Positions 5,264-11,129 of a DNA stretch of 23,886 bases are shown here, piece after piece. The stretch lies in IMG/VR virus record IMGVR_UViG_3300005860_000066, positions 1 to 23,886 of that record. One strand, written 5' to 3'. The notes under the pieces are model-generated. The model saw only the letters and a list, made by a program, of their open reading frames with translations, did no database searches and was not told the DNA's origin. Position 1 is the first letter of the stretch, and the number at the start of each line of letters is the position of its first letter. A program made the position numbers and the translations under genes. This DNA comes from a virus.

Positions 5264-6304
5264 ATGAGTATTTTAACAAGATTTTTTAGAAAACAAGAAT
5301 TTGGCACAGGTTGGCTTGGAGATGAGAAAGAAACATTAGATGAAAGGAATTATCATACTGAAGAAATTTTTAAAGCATATCCTACTCCTACTTGGACAGA
5401 GAAAAAACCATCTGAATGGAGAAGATTTTTACCTATTAGAAATCAAAATGGGTCAGGAGGTTGTGTATCTTTTGCAACTGCTCTTGCCTTAGGAGTTGAA
5501 AACTTTTTAGAAGAGAATAAATTTGAGGTTTTATCAGCAAGATTTATCTATTCAAGAGGATATGTTGCAGAAGCAGGAGGAGGAATGTATTATTTGAATG
5601 CTTTAGAAATTGCAAGAAAAGAAGGAAGTTGTTTAGAACAACAAATGCCATCTGATGGTTTAAATGAAGAACAAATGAGAGTAAGAGATGATACACCAAA
5701 CGAAAGATGGGTTGCTCAAATCTATAAAGCAAATTCTTATATTTTCTTGCCAATGGACATTGATATATGGGCAGGAATTCTACAATCTACTAACAAGGCT
5801 TTATTAGCAGGTGTAAGATTTAATTCAGGAGGATTTTCTAATCCAGAAGTTGTTTTAAATAAAGAAGGGCAATATGGACACGCAATTAATATAGTTGATG
5901 CTACACTTTATAAAGGTAAGAAAGCATTAGTTTTTCAACATGCTTGGTCAGAAAAATGGGGATATAATGGATTAGGAGTTATTACAGAAGACCAATTTAA
6001 AAATGGAGTAATTTTAGGAGCATACTTAATAGATTTTAAATATCAACCACAAACTGCAAATAAACCTAAATTAGCAATAATGGCTCAATCATTAAAAATG
6101 GGTAGTAGGGGGATGGATGTTGTTAAATTACAAGTAGGCCTACAATGGCTTGGATATTTCCCAGCAGAACAAGATTGCACAGGATATTATGGAGGAATTA
6201 CAAGACAAGCAGTAAGAGAATTCCAAAAAGCATATGGATTACCAATTACAGGTATAGCAGATTTAAATACCATTCAAAAGTTTAATGAAATATTTGCAAA
6301 ATAG
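5264..6304 (+). CDS. Endolysin: papain-like cysteine peptidase with C-terminal PG-binding domain
   Basis: A 346-residue protein with two domains. Residues about 50-260 match the C1/papain-like fold: Q61 (oxyanion) and C67 in IRNQNGSGGCVSFATA, then H206 in QYGHAINIVDA, then the W-x-x-x-W-G-x-x-G block at FQHAWSEKWGYNGLG. In classical papains that block reads N-S-W-G and the Asn completes the triad; here the aligned residue is H226, so the third position is changed. Residues about 275-345 form a PG_binding_1 domain (LKMGSRGMDVVKLQVGLQWL, then TRQAVREFQKAYGL). The likely role is cleavage of cell-wall peptides at lysis. The neighbouring holin fits a lysis cassette. It has no signal peptide, so it would need the holin for release. 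An alternative is a virion-borne wall hydrolase. Confidence 0.8.
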   Translation: MSILTRFFRKQEFGTGWLGDEKETLDERNYHTEEIFKAYPTPTWTEKKPSEWRRFLPIRNQNGSGGCVSFATALALGVENFLEENKFEVLSARFIYSRGYVAEAGGGMYYLNALEIARKEGSCLEQQMPSDGLNEEQMRVRDDTPNERWVAQIYKANSYIFLPMDIDIWAGILQSTNKALLAGVRFNSGGFSNPEVVLNKEGQYGHAINIVDATLYKGKKALVFQHAWSEKWGYNGLGVITEDQFKNGVILGAYLIDFKYQPQTANKPKLAIMAQSLKMGSRGMDVVKLQVGLQWLGYFPAEQDCTGYYGGITRQAVREFQKAYGLPITGIADLNTIQKFNEIFAK

Positions 6305-6763: not shown

Positions 6764-6899
6764 ATCCTTATTGTGCCTTATCCGGGCTCCTTGTGAGTAC
6801 TGGATAAGGAGAAGGGTCGGGCAATTAAGCGCAATAGGACAGGAGGAGACGCCCCGCGCCGACCAAATTATCCTCCTGTCCCGCGGGGCTTTTTCTTTT
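6764..6899 (+). ncRNA. Structured GC-rich RNA or leader with interleaved stems, about 135 nt
   Basis: This island is clearly richer in G and C than its surroundings and sits between a promoter and a U-tract. A 5' hairpin pairs CCTTATCC (6776-6783) with GGATAAGG (6802-6809). A start-like motif GTCGGGCAATTAA follows at 6816-6828, but no ATG follows at the usual distance. Four segments then alternate: A 6837-6847 (GGACAGGAGGA) pairs perfectly with A' 6871-6881, and B 6851-6858 (GCCCCGCG) pairs perfectly with B' 6882-6889. Because A' and B' touch, both full stems can hardly form together, so it looks like a switch: B-B' plus the U-tract terminates and A-A' blocks that. GGTCGG (6815-6820) can also pair with CCGACC (6859-6864). 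An open frame crosses the region but starts with no ATG of its own; I treat it as non-coding. Confidence 0.65.
6851..6899 (+). terminator. Intrinsic terminator with a 23-nt loop
   Basis: GCCCCGCG (6851-6858) pairs with CGCGGGGC (6882-6889), followed by TTTTTCTTTT. The loop contains the 3' strand of the competing stem, so termination may be conditional. Confidence 0.7.
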
Positions 6900-6908
6900 A
6901 AAAGCAAA

Positions 6909-7151
6909 ATGATACAGATTATTAAAGAGATACTTGCCTTCGGTTCTGCTTTTATAATCATTGATTGGTTTATAAAAACTTCTTGGGAATACTATAAAAA
7001 GTTTCAAAATAGAGAATGGTATTATGGATTTAAGGGAATGTTTTGTCAGATGATAATTTTGTTAATTCAATTTTTATTTAGCATAGGCGTTATAATAGTA
7101 GCAATGATAGCATCTGGAATAGATGTTAGCATTGACAGCATTATAAAATGA
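6909..7151 (+). CDS. Small two-helix membrane protein, 80 aa
   Basis: Starts MIQIIKEILAFGSAFIIIDW and has hydrophobic segments at about 8-20 and 45-68 (MIILLIQFLFSIGVIIVAMI), joined by a charged, aromatic loop (KTSWEYYKKFQNREWYYGFK). I set the start at ATG 6909, 19 nt past the terminator stem; the in-frame extension upstream would run through the structured RNA. There is no start motif at normal distance and no Shine-Dalgarno site, so expression may depend on readthrough of the upstream switch. It could be an antiholin or an exclusion protein, but I cannot assign a family. Confidence 0.6.
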   Translation: MIQIIKEILAFGSAFIIIDWFIKTSWEYYKKFQNREWYYGFKGMFCQMIILLIQFLFSIGVIIVAMIASGIDVSIDSIIK

Positions 7152-7345
7152 ACATCAAAGAAGTTATTAAAATTTTAGAAAAGATTTTAGGGTATTGTGG
7201 AAAGTGGGATGAAAATGATATTATTTCTGTTCAAAAGAAAACAGGGCATTGTGTTTCTATGAAAATTAAAACCTTTATAGGGCTATTGAAAATGGAGAGT
7301 AAATTATTAAAGGAAGGTCGCATTAAAAAAACATTAAAAAAATGA
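7148..7345 (+). CDS. Hypothetical protein, 65 aa
   Basis: ATGA overlap with the upstream stop suggests translational coupling. The protein is basic (MNIKEVIKILEKILGYCGKW at the start, ending GRIKKTLKK), with two cysteines and predicted helices. I do not recognise it. It lies between a membrane protein and an HTH protein in a run of overlapping genes. Confidence 0.55.
   Translation: MNIKEVIKILEKILGYCGKWDENDIISVQKKTGHCVSMKIKTFIGLLKMESKLLKEGRIKKTLKK
7317..7326 (+). promoter_or_regulatory. Start motif GTCGCATTAA for the first HTH gene
   Basis: A short form with one variable base. It ends 15 nt before ATG 7342 and lies inside the upstream gene, encoding part of its GRIKK tail. Confidence 0.75.
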
Positions 7346-7617
7346 AACTTCAAATCTTTTTAGAGGATGCGGGAAGGCCAGTTGCTTATTATCCTAAATT
7401 AGCAAAGTTTTTAGGGTCGGTAAATTCAGCAATCTTTCTATGCACTTATTGGGGAATAAAAGAATTTTCTAAGACTTCAAAAGAAATTGAGAAAGAAACT
7501 GGATTAACTTATAAACAGCAAAAGTTAGCAAGGAAAATATTGAAAGAAAGAGGATATTTAACAGAAAAGCGCGAGGGAATTCCACCCATAATTCATTATT
7601 CCATTAAATGGGGATAG
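7342..7617 (+). CDS. Winged-helix DNA-binding protein, 91 aa
   Basis: A compact protein whose middle reads TSKEIEKETGLTYKQQKLARKILKERGYLTEKREG. This is a typical winged helix: helix, turn at TGLT, a recognition helix with QQKLARKIL, and a beta-wing. Similar small domains occur in phage replication initiators and regulators. The N-terminus (LAKFLGSVNSAIFLCTYWGI) also resembles initiator N-terminal helices. It directly precedes the second, larger HTH gene and the putative origin, so a replication or regulatory role is likely. ATG 7342 overlaps the upstream stop and has the start motif. Confidence 0.65.
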   Translation: MKLQIFLEDAGRPVAYYPKLAKFLGSVNSAIFLCTYWGIKEFSKTSKEIEKETGLTYKQQKLARKILKERGYLTEKREGIPPIIHYSIKWG

Positions 7618-7635
7618 GATATTACTTTATAATGG

Positions 7636-7646
7636 GTCGCCATTAA
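7636..7646 (+). promoter_or_regulatory. Start motif GTCGCCATTAA for the initiator-like gene
   Basis: It ends 12 nt before ATG 7659, at the short end of the spacing range. Confidence 0.75.
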
Positions 7647-7658
7647 AAAAATAACAAA

Positions 7659-8396
7659 ATGGAAGAAGATATTCAAAAAAGTTTTTGGGCATTTATACCC
7701 TCTATGGCATTATCTGATAAAAATCTATGTTCTACAGAAAAATTGATGTTAGCAGAAATCTATTCTCTTGCTAATCAATATGGAATTTGTTACCCTTCTA
7801 ATAAACATTTTGCAGATTTATTCGATATTTCTGAAAGACTTGTAAGAAGATATCTTGCCCATTTACAAAAAGAAGGATGGATAGAAATAATATTAGAAGA
7901 AGGCTATAAACGAGTTATAAGAATTAACTTCTCCCCCCTGGATGATAAATTGAGAAATGGATACAAAAAGGTAAAGGGGGGGAGGAACTATAGTTCCGGG
8001 GGGGAGGAAATAAAGTTCCGGGGGGGAGGAACTATAGTTCCCCATAGAAATACATATAGAAATACATATAGAAATACACATAAAATATGTAATGAAACTA
8101 AGAAATCCCAAGCCGGTAGTGATAGCAAAAAAGAGAATATTCCATTAAAAGAAGAAATTGAAAAAAATACTGTTATTTGCAGTATTTGCCATCGAAGAGT
8201 GTTAAAAAGTAATGCTTTCGAGTTTTCTAAGGGAAAATACAAGTGTTCTGACTGCTTTAGAAGGGATATTGTAAAGAAAAAAGAAAAATTATTGGCTCGG
8301 CAGATTGTTCCTCCCCAAGAGCGGGCTGAAATGGAGGAAAAGATTGCTCGCTTGGAAAGAGATTTAAAAGCAGGTAAAAAGGTTGGAATTAAATAA
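7659..8396 (+). CDS. Replication-initiator-like protein: HTH domain, repeat linker, zinc ribbon
   Basis: A 245-residue protein. Residues 1-95 resemble the helix-turn-helix domain of phage and plasmid replication proteins (HTH_36 type): STEKLMLAEIYSLANQYGIC, then the recognition region FADLFDISERLVRRYLAHLQKEGWI. Residues 106-140 are a low-complexity linker (GGRNYSSGG, then RNTYRNTYRNT) encoded by two tandem repeat sets. Residues 174-199 form a zinc ribbon with CSIC and CSDC pairs, followed by a charged coiled coil (ERAEMEEKIARLERDLKAG). This matches lambda O: DNA-binding N-domain, origin within the gene, and a C-part that would contact helicase or loader. The last point is inference. A transcription-regulator role is the main alternative. 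Confidence 0.7.
   Translation: MEEDIQKSFWAFIPSMALSDKNLCSTEKLMLAEIYSLANQYGICYPSNKHFADLFDISERLVRRYLAHLQKEGWIEIILEEGYKRVIRINFSPLDDKLRNGYKKVKGGRNYSSGGEEIKFRGGGTIVPHRNTYRNTYRNTHKICNETKKSQAGSDSKKENIPLKEEIEKNTVICSICHRRVLKSNAFEFSKGKYKCSDCFRRDIVKKKEKLLARQIVPPQERAEMEEKIARLERDLKAGKKVGIK
7976..8041 (+). repeat. Three tandem 22-bp iterons
   Basis: Each unit is seven Gs followed by AGGAACTATAGTTCC. Units at 7976-7997 and 8020-8041 are identical; the middle one (7998-8019) has two substitutions that break its palindrome. Each perfect unit holds the 14-bp palindrome GGAACTATAGTTCC. The 22-bp period is about two helical turns and is not a multiple of three, so each copy is read in a different frame; the conservation is of DNA, not protein. 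Confidence 0.9.
8044..8079 (+). repeat. Three tandem AT-rich 12-mers
   Basis: ATAGAAATACAT is repeated three times with one change in the last base pair of the third copy, starting two bases after the iterons. It encodes RNTY-RNTY-RNTH. AT-rich 12- or 13-mers next to initiator sites are typical DNA-unwinding elements. Confidence 0.9.
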
Positions 8397-8472
8397 GATT
8401 AGCAAGGTGGCAGTAGGAGCGAGAAGGGGGAAGAAGTTTAAGGGAACGAAAGAGAGGATAGCACACTATAAG

Positions 8473-8495
8473 ACGGGGGATTATCCCCCGTTTTT
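8473..8495 (+). terminator. Intrinsic terminator upstream of the nuclease/protease cassette
   Basis: ACGGGGGA pairs with TCCCCCGT around a TTA loop and is followed by TTTTT. The 76 nt before it, after the initiator stop, are purine-rich and hold no gene I can support. Confidence 0.85.
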
Positions 8496-8498
8496 AAT

Positions 8499-8527
8499 TT
8501 GACTTTTAAAAAATTTTAATCTATAAT
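8499..8527 (+). promoter_or_regulatory. Promoter of the nuclease/protease cassette
   Basis: TTGACT at 8499-8504, 17 nt, TATAAT at 8522-8527. Its AT-rich spacer is nearly the same as that of the promoter at 10117, so the two may be related by duplication or answer the same regulator. Confidence 0.8.
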
Positions 8528-8545
8528 GAGGGTAGAAACTCTATA

Positions 8546-8555
8546 GGGAGGTGAT
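8546..8555 (+). promoter_or_regulatory. Shine-Dalgarno GGGAGGTGAT
   Basis: Near-perfect complement of the 16S 3' end. It places the start at ATG 8560; the in-frame GTG at 8551 is inside the binding site and so is not the start. Confidence 0.85.
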
Positions 8556-8559
8556 AAGA

Positions 8560-9213
8560 ATGTTGAATAAACTCCTTGCAGACTATTGCAGGAAGGTGTA
8601 TCTATCTGGACATTCAGAACCAGTCCAGATAGGTGTGTATCGTCCATCTGTCTTATCCTGGTCCTGTATCAGGAAGCAGTGGAATTACTACAAATTCTTA
8701 TCTGGGAAAAAAGCAGAGGAAATCCCAGATGATATTATCCTCTTGCTTGCAGGCGGAGTAGTATTCCACCGCTTGATACAAGGACTAAAAGATGAACAAG
8801 GAAGACCTTACTGGGATAAGACAGAGATTGAATGCTCCATAGAAGTTAATGTTGCAGGAGGAGAAAAGATTAAAATCATAGGACACGCTGATGCTATAAG
8901 AGGAAAAGGAATGGATAAAATAGTCTACGAGTTTAAGCATGTTAGGCAACTTCCTAACAAGCCACAATTCCCGCATCTCCTGCAACTAAACTTCTATTTA
9001 GGAGCATTGGGTGTTAATAGGGGAAGCTTGCTTTATGTAGGATATCTTCCTCATGGGGGTTTGGCTGTTAAAGAGTTTGGCTGGCTTTATTCAAACTGGC
9101 ACATGGAACATTTAATTGCAAGGGCACAGATGTTGCATACCTTGTTAATCCACAATGAGGCTCCTCGCTGTAGTTGTAAAAATAGAGTTCACGAACTCGG
9201 ACAACTAATTTAA
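8560..9213 (+). CDS. Cas4-like PD-(D/E)XK nuclease
   Basis: A 217-residue protein with the Cas4/RecB-type nuclease order: C36 in SWSCIRKQWNYYK, H70 in GGVVFHRLIQG, D111 in IGHADAIRG, E124 and K126 in VYEFKHV, and Q142 in LLQLNFYLG. Two C-terminal cysteines sit at 204 and 206 (CSCKNR). Typical Cas4 proteins use one N-terminal and three C-terminal cysteines for an iron-sulfur cluster; here only two C-terminal ones are seen, so the cluster is doubtful. The chemistry would be metal-dependent DNA cleavage. No cas1, cas2 or CRISPR array is present. The gene is richer in GC-ending codons than its neighbours, uses a Shine-Dalgarno site and is co-transcribed with the protease. It may serve recombination, or be defence or anti-defence; context favours an acquired accessory role. 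Confidence 0.75.
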   Translation: MLNKLLADYCRKVYLSGHSEPVQIGVYRPSVLSWSCIRKQWNYYKFLSGKKAEEIPDDIILLLAGGVVFHRLIQGLKDEQGRPYWDKTEIECSIEVNVAGGEKIKIIGHADAIRGKGMDKIVYEFKHVRQLPNKPQFPHLLQLNFYLGALGVNRGSLLYVGYLPHGGLAVKEFGWLYSNWHMEHLIARAQMLHTLLIHNEAPRCSCKNRVHELGQLI

Positions 9214-9222
9214 GGAGGTGAT
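9212..9222 (+). promoter_or_regulatory. Shine-Dalgarno AAGGAGGTGAT
   Basis: It overlaps the nuclease stop codon and sets the protease start at ATG 9227, eight bases after AGGAGG; GTG 9218 and ATG 9221 lie in or too close to the site. Confidence 0.85.
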
Positions 9223-9226
9223 GAAA

Positions 9227-9952
9227 ATGTTGTTGACTCGATGCTCTAAACGCGGGATTGTATTGCATAAGGTGGGAAAAATCAAAGATGTGGAGATGAG
9301 GGCAGTGAGAGGAATAAGACCCTTTATTTTTGTAAGGGAGCAGAATAAGGTTATGGACTATCCAATCCCAACGCCGCATTTACTTCCACTTCCATTCAGA
9401 CGCTTCTGCTGTTTTATAGGAGTTGCGACCCCAGAAGGAACTTGGTTAGGTTCAGGAGTTCTAACAGAGTTGGGAATTATCTCGGCCTTTCACTTGTTTC
9501 GATATCCGCGCATAGAAGAGGCTTGGGCTACATTCATCCTGGAGAATGGAACACTGACAAGTTTCAATCTTTACGATGTCTTAGCAGAAGAACCATCACA
9601 GGATTTCATAATTCTACTCCCACCACACCTATCTGGATACTTCAAACCAGTTAAGCTTGGATGGTATAGTCACGTTCCTTTCAACAAAAAGCACATTGTG
9701 GGATTTGGATGTCCAGAAGGTCTGTTAGGAACTATCTGGAGGCCGGAATATGTTGCATCAGATAACTACATGCTTTACACCAAAGGCTTTGCTTGCGGTG
9801 GAGTTTCAGGAGGAGGAATGTTCACTCTCTATAACAATGAATGGTATCTATGGGCAATCAACTCGGTTTACTTCCTTCAGTCTCGAACACTGATTTCCAG
9901 AATGGTAAGATTCAAGGAAAGGAAAACAGGGCGGAGAAAACCCACGAGATAA
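9227..9952 (+). CDS. Trypsin-like serine protease
   Basis: A 241-residue protein with the trypsin-fold triad in the right order and spacing: H89 in GIISAFHLF, D126 in EPSQDFIILLP, and S194 in GFACGGVSGGGMF (GxSGG). The strand before the histidine (GVATPEGTWLGSGVLTE) is the usual one for trypsin-like and S1C/HtrA-like cores. There is no signal peptide and no PDZ domain, so it likely acts in the cytoplasm. Its only partner is the upstream Cas4-like nuclease, 13 nt away. Trypsin-like domains joined or linked to nucleases are known in bacterial conflict systems, which makes a defence or superinfection-exclusion role plausible; prohead maturation is the main alternative but it lies far from the head genes. 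Base composition and ribosome site differ from the phage norm. Confidence 0.75.
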   Translation: MLLTRCSKRGIVLHKVGKIKDVEMRAVRGIRPFIFVREQNKVMDYPIPTPHLLPLPFRRFCCFIGVATPEGTWLGSGVLTELGIISAFHLFRYPRIEEAWATFILENGTLTSFNLYDVLAEEPSQDFIILLPPHLSGYFKPVKLGWYSHVPFNKKHIVGFGCPEGLLGTIWRPEYVASDNYMLYTKGFACGGVSGGGMFTLYNNEWYLWAINSVYFLQSRTLISRMVRFKERKTGRRKPTR

Positions 9953-9972
9953 ACTTCGTGGGACAACTCCGC
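9931..9972 (+). other. Two-tier hairpin across the protease stop codon
   Basis: GCGGAG (9931-9936) pairs with CTCCGC (9967-9972), and inside it CCCACGA (9941-9947) pairs with TCGTGGG (9956-9962), separated by an AAAA/ACAA internal loop. There is no U-tract, so it more likely protects the mRNA 3' end or affects termination. Confidence 0.6.
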
Positions 9973-9974
9973 AA

Positions 9975-10029
9975 AGGGGGGCCAAGATAAAAGAGTGAAC
10001 AAAGACAAGAAGAACCTGAGGGCCCCCCT
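9975..10029 (+). terminator. Long-loop inverted repeat, possible terminator
   Basis: AGGGGGGCC (9975-9983) pairs with GGCCCCCCT (10021-10029) around 37 nt of purine-rich loop; CTCTTT follows. The U-tract is weak, so it may be a boundary element rather than a terminator. Confidence 0.5.
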
Positions 10030-10082
10030 CTTTAAATTGTAGATAAATTGTGGATAAGATATAAAAAACATAGATTTTATAA

Positions 10083-10103
10083 GCCCTTTTATAGGGCATT
10101 TTT
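10083..10103 (+). terminator. Small hairpin and T-tract
   Basis: GCCCT pairs with AGGGC across a five-base loop, followed by ATTTTT. A short, moderate terminator insulating the next promoter. Confidence 0.5.
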
Positions 10104-10116
10104 AATTTGTGAAAAT

Positions 10117-10145
10117 TTGCATTTAAAAAATTTTTAATTTATAAT
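10117..10145 (+). promoter_or_regulatory. Promoter of the DNA-metabolism gene run
   Basis: TTGCAT at 10117-10122, 17 nt, TATAAT at 10140-10145. The predicted start near 10152 is upstream of the start motif at 10165, so that motif would be transcribed. Confidence 0.75.
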
Positions 10146-10164
10146 GATATCAGAAAAATAAAAG

Positions 10165-10174
10165 GTCGAATTAA
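10165..10174 (+). promoter_or_regulatory. Start motif GTCGAATTAA
   Basis: A short form with one variable base. It ends 14 nt before ATG 10189. Confidence 0.8.
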
Positions 10175-10188
10175 CAGATAATAGAACA

Positions 10189-10623
10189 ATGCCAGAAGAA
10201 ATCAGAATACCATATTCAAAAGTGGTAATACAGGGAGTAAAATGTAGATATTGTGGAAAAGGATTTGATGCTCCAGTAATTTTGGATGAAGAAGGAAATG
10301 AAGAGGTTATAGATGTTTGTGATGAATGTGCAAAAGATATGGCCTATGCTCAAGCTTATGATGAATTAAAAGAGAAGGTTGTTTTTGAAAACAAAACTTG
10401 GTCGGAATTAGCAAAAGAAAATAAGATGAATGAAACGCTGGGGAAACGGCAATATATCAAATTAGAACCTGCTCAGAAAATTTTTAATACGCTTTTGATG
10501 ACATTGGGAGGAGAATGGTTAAAAGAGAATGTAGAGAACAAAGAAAAACTTATAAATTTAGTGAAATTAGCAGTTGATTTAGCAGACGAATTAGTTGAAA
10601 AACTTTATAGAGAAAGCCAATAA
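10189..10623 (+). CDS. Zinc-ribbon protein, 144 aa, unknown
   Basis: The N-terminus has two cysteine pairs, CRYC near residue 19 and CDEC near residue 44, which form a likely zinc ribbon. The rest is helical (KIFNTLLMTLGGEWLKENVE and LIKLAVDL-like segments) and acidic-basic mixed. I recognise no family. It heads a run of about ten short overlapping genes. An internal ATG at 10426 is in frame and has its own near-perfect start motif, so a short form without the zinc ribbon may also be made. Confidence 0.65.
   Translation: MPEEIRIPYSKVVIQGVKCRYCGKGFDAPVILDEEGNEEVIDVCDECAKDMAYAQAYDELKEKVVFENKTWSELAKENKMNETLGKRQYIKLEPAQKIFNTLLMTLGGEWLKENVENKEKLINLVKLAVDLADELVEKLYRESQ
10401..10411 (+). promoter_or_regulatory. 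Internal start motif GTCGGAATTAG
   Basis: One base off the consensus. It ends 14 nt before an in-frame ATG at 10426, which would yield the C-terminal 65 residues of the zinc-ribbon protein. Confidence 0.4.
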
Positions 10624-10634
10624 GTCAGAATTAA
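10624..10634 (+). promoter_or_regulatory. Start motif variant GTCAGAATTAA
   Basis: It follows the stop of the zinc-ribbon gene and ends 13 nt before ATG 10648; the fourth base is A instead of G. Confidence 0.7.
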
Positions 10635-10647
10635 ACAAAAATAAAAA

Positions 10648-10854
10648 ATGGATAAAAAATTAGAAAATAAAATTAAAGAGATTGCTAATGAAATTATGGC
10701 TGATATAGATGGATATATGAATAAGTATAAACAGCAAATAGAAGAGTTTAATCAAAAATTAGAAAAACTTTGTGATGATTTAACACGAGTAAATGTTGCC
10801 TTGAAATATACATTAGAACAAATAAAGTCGGTATTAAATGAAAGCGAGAAATGA
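10648..10854 (+). CDS. Small coiled-coil protein, 68 aa
   Basis: Nearly all helix with heptad spacing of I, L and V (KIKEIANEIMADIDGY, then QQIEEFNQKLEKLCDDLTRV). It likely forms a homodimer. No catalytic motif is present. It overlaps the next start by four bases (ATGA), suggesting coupled translation. Confidence 0.6.
   Translation: MDKKLENKIKEIANEIMADIDGYMNKYKQQIEEFNQKLEKLCDDLTRVNVALKYTLEQIKSVLNESEK
10827..10837 (+). promoter_or_regulatory. Start motif GTCGGTATTAA
   Basis: It lies in the last codons of the coiled-coil gene (SVLN) and ends 13 nt before ATG 10851. Confidence 0.75.
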
Positions 10855-11129
10855 AAAAGTATTGGGTAGGATACAAAATAAAAACTGATTTTCCAGATGT
10901 TGATATTGAAAATGGATTTTATGTAATTGCAAAAAATGATGAGGAAGCAAAACAAAAAGCATACAAAATGGCAGAAGAAGTATTTGGAGGATTTGATAAC
11001 TTTGATGAGATTTTTGAAAATGAATTCTTTATAGAAGAGGAAAGAGAAAGAAGAGAGTCGAAATTAATTAAAGAAATAAAAAATGGAGAACAATTTTTTA
11101 ACATTAAAAGAAATACAAGGAAAAACTAA
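10851..11129 (+). CDS. Hypothetical acidic protein, 92 aa
   Basis: Starts KKYWVGYKIKTDFPDVDIEN; contains FYVIAKNDEEAKQKAYKMAE, which looks like a small alpha/beta fold of the kind often annotated as unknown in phages. The C-terminal 15 residues overlap the next gene in a different frame by 47 bases. The overlap region carries the start motif for that gene and is lysine/arginine-rich. Confidence 0.55.
   Translation: MKKYWVGYKIKTDFPDVDIENGFYVIAKNDEEAKQKAYKMAEEVFGGFDNFDEIFENEFFIEEERERRESKLIKEIKNGEQFFNIKRNTRKN
11057..11067 (+). promoter_or_regulatory. Start motif GTCGAAATTAA
   Basis: Embedded in the upstream coding region (SKLI) and ending 15 nt before ATG 11083, which itself lies within the upstream gene. 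Confidence 0.75.

Follow-up and report, generated by a model that had tools for sequence, protein, structure and literature searches.

The locus considered here raises the question of whether two adjacent phage genes, one encoding a predicted Cas4-like nuclease and the other a predicted trypsin-fold protease, form a single system and, if so, what such a system would do. The stretch of DNA analysed (hereafter the window) is a virus record of 23,886 bases with terminase, portal and capsid genes, in which the pair lies between the replication-initiation (rep) gene and the first early genes. The original prediction, made from the letters of the window, had described the pair as an insulated cassette with its own expression signals and suggested an undescribed conflict system with a protease-gated nuclease, or a superinfection-exclusion moron. 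The observation itself was borne out, and the interpretation found partial support. Comparison of sequences established the fold families, the intact active sites, the fixed pairing and order, the possession of own signals, the joint inheritance and the movement between phage backbones; what the pair does can be stated with graded confidence only. Table 1 lists the features of the cassette. As had been claimed, neither cas genes nor a CRISPR-like repeat array were recognised in the window; no cas gene was seen near the pair and no Rfam family was detected in the pair loci.

Table 1. Features of the nuclease-protease cassette, in window coordinates
Feature	Position	Strand	Basis and remarks
Terminator-like hairpin and T run	8475..8492 (hairpin 8475-8488)	+	Scan and sequence; sets the cassette apart from the upstream replication-initiation gene
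Sigma-70-type promoter, TTGACT-17-TATAAT (predicted)	8499..8527	+	Scan; followed by a GTAG leader conserved in four phages
Shine-Dalgarno site of the nuclease gene, GGGAGGTGA	8546..8554 (limits approximate)	+	Sequence; Shine-Dalgarno tally
Cas4-like PD-(D/E)XK nuclease (predicted), 217 aa	8560..9213 (ATG at 8560)	+	phrog_1706; TIGR00372 (L002 homologue); PDB 4ic1; invariance in four phages
Shine-Dalgarno site of the protease gene, AAGGAGGTGA, at the nuclease stop codon	9213..9222 (limits approximate)	+	Sequence
Trypsin-fold serine protease (predicted), 241 aa	9227..9952 (ATG at 9227)	+	PF13365 and PF00089 matches of homologues; triad; hydropathy
Terminator-like hairpin 3′ of the protease gene	10018..10030	+	Scan; such a hairpin in 4/4 phages
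Second terminator-like hairpin	10083..10097	+	Scan; precedes the promoter-like site of the next operon (10116-10145)

A search for the same gene pair had been proposed as a check of the prediction, and it was found in three further independent IMG/VR phages and one near-duplicate. A first viral scan rendered one more phage with the same gene order, IMGVR_UViG_3300035183_000244 (G1; pair locus L002), whose nuclease and protease were about 71-72% and 44% identical, respectively, to those of the window. A degenerate DNA pattern around the nuclease motifs led to IMGVR_UViG_3300005573_000159 (G432; L084) and IMGVR_UViG_3300000085_000003 (G433; L094), and a near-duplicate of G432 was also found (3300027863_000164; L053); in all three, the protease gene lies directly downstream of the nuclease gene. 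The adjacent pair, in the same order, was present in five of five nuclease-bearing contigs, which represent four independent phages. The viral scans, the last of which used a four-member profile and added none, gave no member of this nuclease clade that lacked the protease partner; the idea that the two genes would never be paired elsewhere, named beforehand as a ground for refutation, was contradicted. Since the four phages were found through the pair itself, the fraction of the phage group that carries it is not derivable from them. Plasmid searches gave no match, and a nuclease peptide scan of bacterial and archaeal genomes gave none. Nuclease profiles run against sampled genomes produced 0 matches and no chromosomal or defence-island copy, a result that, for want of a positive control in those samples, indicates rarity weakly. 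When the protease serine motif was sought in bacterial and archaeal genomes, 30 stretches were returned, none homologous to the family, and two motif matches in viral contigs (L008 and L009) were false.

Although the other proteases share no more than 34-44% identity with that of the window, the catalytic residues are invariant. Values of dN were 0.16-0.39 for the nuclease and 0.35-0.69 for the protease, while synonymous sites were saturated or nearly so, and dN was far below dS wherever the latter could be estimated. Given these low dN values at near-saturated synonymous divergence, both genes are under purifying selection, with the protease evolving faster (its protein-level divergence is roughly double that of the nuclease). 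This bears on the simplest alternative, namely that the two genes do not function together and are either adjacent by chance or part of an insertion in decay. Their composition, atypical of the window, would fit such an origin; conservation in four phages, purifying selection and invariant catalytic residues contradict it, and we regard it as very improbable.

The window nuclease matched phrog_1706 (4.6e-11) and the PADLOC Cas4 model (1.4e-4), and its L002 homologue matched TIGR00372 cas4 (5.4e-6). A two-member nuclease profile retrieved PDB structure 4ic1 (1e-6), a Sulfolobus Cas4. The PD-(D/E)XK catalytic motifs are present, and the motif residues H70, D111, E124-x-K126 and Q142 are invariant in all four phages, as are Cys 10, 36, 204 and 206. 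Three of these (C36, C204 and C206) would correspond to Fe-S cluster cysteines of the Cas4 type, the last expected position being occupied by Cys in L002 and by His in the other three members. The TIGR00372 scores (17.9 and 26.3 bits) are far below the curated cut-off of 65 and no cas neighbours were recognised; on these grounds the nuclease is, to judge by sequence, Cas4-like but not a CRISPR Cas4. It resembles the virus-encoded and mobile-element Cas4 proteins (phrog_1706; lipothrixvirus and phage nucleases; PMC5704561) in fold, motif residues and the lack of other cas genes. It differs from them in that the fourth cluster cysteine is replaced by His in three of the four members, and in that the two known copies examined, those of its distant relatives Streptomyces phage Gilson and Acidianus filamentous virus 9 (AFV9), sit among recombination genes and have no annotated protease neighbour.

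The setting of these relatives speaks for another reading, in which the nuclease is a routine recombination or replication exonuclease of the phage group and the protease processes, removes or merely accompanies it. This reading also draws on the presence of an Hjc-like gene in all four phages, adjoining the pair in G432, and on the fact that nothing else in the window was recognised as a recombination exonuclease. It is weakened by G1, which has a separate RecB-like exonuclease (L002:459-1067; PF12705, 6.5e-4), and further by the cassette having its own promoter, terminator and expression signals, by its movement independently of the Hjc-like gene (see below) and by its fixed protease partner. 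No recombinase was recognised beside the pair in any of the four phages, many neighbours being unnamed. A routine exonuclease, which the original prediction had named as a finding that would count against it, is kept alive by the neighbourhoods of the distant relatives, and we consider it unlikely.

The window protease by itself gave no Pfam match; PDB searches with the protease gave no significant match, and none was found when the window protease was compared with named phages. Its assignment comes from homologues: the L084 and L094 proteases pass the PF13365 Trypsin_2 cut-off (29.2 and 30.5 bits against 27.6; 7.2e-7 and 1.8e-6), and a homologue also matches PF00089 (3.4e-4). The catalytic His, Asp and Ser occur in this order, together with the oxyanion Gly, and all four residues (H89, D126, G192 and S194) are invariant in the four phages. 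The seven residues on which both active sites had been called intact (D111, E124, K126 and Q142 in the nuclease; H89, D126 and S194 in the protease) were found at those positions and were invariant across the four homologous pairs. The proteases share fold family, triad order and the GxSGG oxyanion motif with Trypsin_2/HtrA-type proteases (PF13365), and differ from these in having neither a further domain nor a signal peptide. Their length (215-241 aa) corresponds to a protease domain plus a short variable N-terminus, with no fused sensor or defence protein. At the position of trypsin Asp189, six residues ahead of the catalytic Ser, the proteases have a large hydrophobic side chain (Phe, Met or Leu), and Val replaces trypsin Asp194; these presumed equivalences were assigned by inspection. 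Hydropathy analysis revealed no signal peptide or membrane segment in either enzyme, which for the protease supports the cytosolic location predicted. The L002 protease also matched Lamassu LmuA (PADLOC PDLC03855; 8.2e-8), which is no specific similarity since the same model finds matches in 7 of 14 control genomes, E. coli and B. subtilis among them, and the match therefore shows protease fold only. AlphaFold models of both proteins, built on alignments of two rows, were too poor for use (pLDDT 34 and 38), and fold searches with them gave unrelated matches only.

Several signals indicate that the pair is expressed independently. The window promoter has 11 of 12 matches and was the best among 11 promoter-like sites in positions 7300-11000. 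The number of such sites was not above chance (12.6 in shuffles), so the promoter call rests on position and conservation: the TATAAT box and the GTAG leader occur at the same place in all four pairs, preceded by TTGACA-16 in L002 (TTGACA-16-TATAAT; 12/12) and by TTGTAA-17 in L094 (TTGTAA-17-TATAAT; 10/12), while L084 keeps TATAAT and has no good -35 box. This agreement with the three other loci upholds the predicted own promoter. Terminator-like hairpins exceeded expectation (9 found against 2.6), and one lies 3′ of the protease gene in each of the four phages; the upstream terminator and downstream inverted repeats foreseen in the window correspond to the three hairpins of Table 1. Strong Shine-Dalgarno sites precede both window genes, as predicted. 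Such sites occur at all eight pair genes of the four phages, whereas of the 134 other ORFs in those phages that encode roughly 80 residues or more, 10 have one.

The claim that the pair differs from all its neighbours in start signal and codon choice held with an adjustment. GC3 was 0.38 for the nuclease gene and 0.41 for the protease gene, against a window median of 0.21, and pair GC3 was well above the median in each of the four phages. In the window, the protease gene ranked first and the nuclease gene third, an ORF of 126 aa (6771-7151; 0.39) coming between them. As to start signals, the neighbours do not merely lack Shine-Dalgarno sites: many have upstream the element GTCGN(1-2)ATTAA, which commonly ends 12-16 bases 5′ of the ATG. 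The window has 16 such sites, where shuffled sequence would give 0.12, and the other three phages have 10, 5 and 8; the element was absent from all pair genes, and no gene had both the element and a Shine-Dalgarno site. The cassette accordingly uses different, conventional expression signals, since its genes have Shine-Dalgarno sites and lack the GTCG element. The element itself (e.g. at 1035, 6305, 7636, 10165, 11862 and 19849) occurs in the window on the coding strand only and also at genes inside operons, and may be a translation signal or a promoter for near-leaderless transcripts.

The four phages fall into two structural lineages, one comprising the window and G432 (capsid 75% and portal 65% identical) and the other G1 and G433 (terminase 71%, portal 66%, capsid 60%). 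Between lineages there is almost no structural similarity: one gene downstream of the capsid gene is weakly similar (23-29%), as is one tail-region gene (33%). The pair groups the phages differently, and in this its two genes agree: G432 goes with G433 (nuclease 80%, protease 59%) and the window with G1 (about 72% and 44%). The location of the pair also varies, at the 3′ end of the early operon and facing the late genes in G1, G432 and G433, and elsewhere in the window. This different grouping and these different positions indicate that the pair travels as one block, and from the sequences the promoter and terminator travel with it. The block moves apart from the Hjc-like gene, since that of G432 is closest to its counterpart in G1 (78%) whereas the G432 pair is closest to that of G433. 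An autonomous two-gene cassette with horizontal movement is what would be expected of a moron, as had been suggested. Like phage morons, it appears to be an additional transcription unit that brings its own promoter and terminator, is atypical in composition and varies in position; instead of a single conversion gene, it would encode two enzymes resembling one system.

Other features of these phages were noted. Intein-like insertions with LAGLIDADG domains occur in G1 (L005:6196-8577) and G432 (L105:6425-9814); they lie in a protein that measures 421 aa in G433 and in the G432 large terminase, whose window counterpart has no such interruption. The 40.9-kb G432 contig has two capsid/portal/head sets (L105:850-1788 and L106:14541-15482), both capsids being about 75% identical to the window capsid, which may reflect head-module duplication or chimeric assembly. 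An IS110-family transposase-like gene is present in the early operon of G1 (L002:1541-2218).

Fixed pairing, co-transfer and shared expression argue that the two enzymes form one system, and a functional pairing of nuclease and protease is likely. In an alternative reading, the two co-expressed enzymes would serve host takeover or anti-defence and each have a target of its own, such as host DNA or CRISPR adaptation in the case of the nuclease and defence or regulatory proteins of the host in that of the protease. Shine-Dalgarno sites, a conventional promoter and independent expression suit unmodified host machinery, the roughly twofold faster protein divergence of the protease might follow changing outside targets, and a phage Cas4-like protein has reportedly been tied to host-derived spacer acquisition in Campylobacter (PMC4283603). 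Two independent enzymes, however, would not need strict pairing and joint transfer in four phages, and we consider such separate roles possible and rather doubtful. Our preferred reading, held tentatively and with somewhat less than even confidence, is that of a mobile, independently expressed, moron-like cassette whose enzymes are one system, in which the protease controls the nuclease by cutting it and which is used in conflict. The most economical mechanism would be that protease cleavage of the nuclease either activates or removes the DNase, and the unit may act against competing genetic elements or the host.

The nearest known parallel provides a precedent for protease control of this kind. 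Pairs of a trypsin-like protease and a metallo-beta-lactamase nuclease were published in 2025 from Hachiman (HamM with a protease-HamA), AVAST, Lamassu and DRT, with the caspase relatives Canu, and for the Hachiman and AVAST pairs it was demonstrated that protease cutting of gating loops activates the DNase (PMC12799240). The phage pair is like them in having the nuclease gene directly upstream of the trypsin-like protease gene, in co-inheritance, in movement as a unit between unrelated genetic backgrounds, and in the proposed logic of protease control of a DNase. It differs in that their nuclease is of the metallo-beta-lactamase type with gating insertions, whereas that of the phages is a Cas4-like PD-(D/E)XK enzyme with no visible insertion, and in that their protease, encoded in bacterial loci, forms a fusion with a further defence protein, whereas here it stands alone and the carrier is a phage. 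Because the nuclease fold differs and the protease is unfused, the phage pair is not a member of that group, which it resembles in arrangement and possibly in logic. The description of the cassette as undescribed must be qualified in the same sense: protease and nuclease pairs with the same gating logic have been published, and those differ in nuclease fold and protease fusion.

Against gating, there is no visible match to the gating loops of the published pro-nucleases and no sensor domain on the protease. The alignment of the Cas4-like catalytic core with 4ic1 (83-160 to 77-154) shows no net insertion, and gating would therefore have to work by some other device. This, if any, might be the first 30 residues at the N-terminus or the metal-site region at the C-terminus; alternatively, the protease may limit the nuclease. 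A more specific proposal is that the phages carry a conflict system in which a Cas4-like pro-nuclease would be turned on or off by the free-standing trypsin-fold protease, proteolytic control having been assembled independently on another nuclease fold and in phages instead of bacterial defence islands; this seems to us unlikely on present evidence. If the protease does control the nuclease, the gating of DNases by proteolysis would extend beyond a single nuclease fold and beyond bacterial immunity, with phages as carriers and exchangers of such switches. Should there be no gating, the cassette is still a compact two-enzyme unit that moves between unrelated phage backbones with its own conventional signals.

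Two further observations concern the window itself. Three tandem G-rich repeats (GGGGGGGAGGAACTATAGTTCC-like, with 22-base spacing) lie at 7965-8041, inside the replication-initiation gene, and are suggestive of origin iterons. The gene at 5264-6304, which adjoins a holin-like gene, encodes a papain-family (C1) protease fused to a peptidoglycan-binding domain and is an unusual endolysin candidate.
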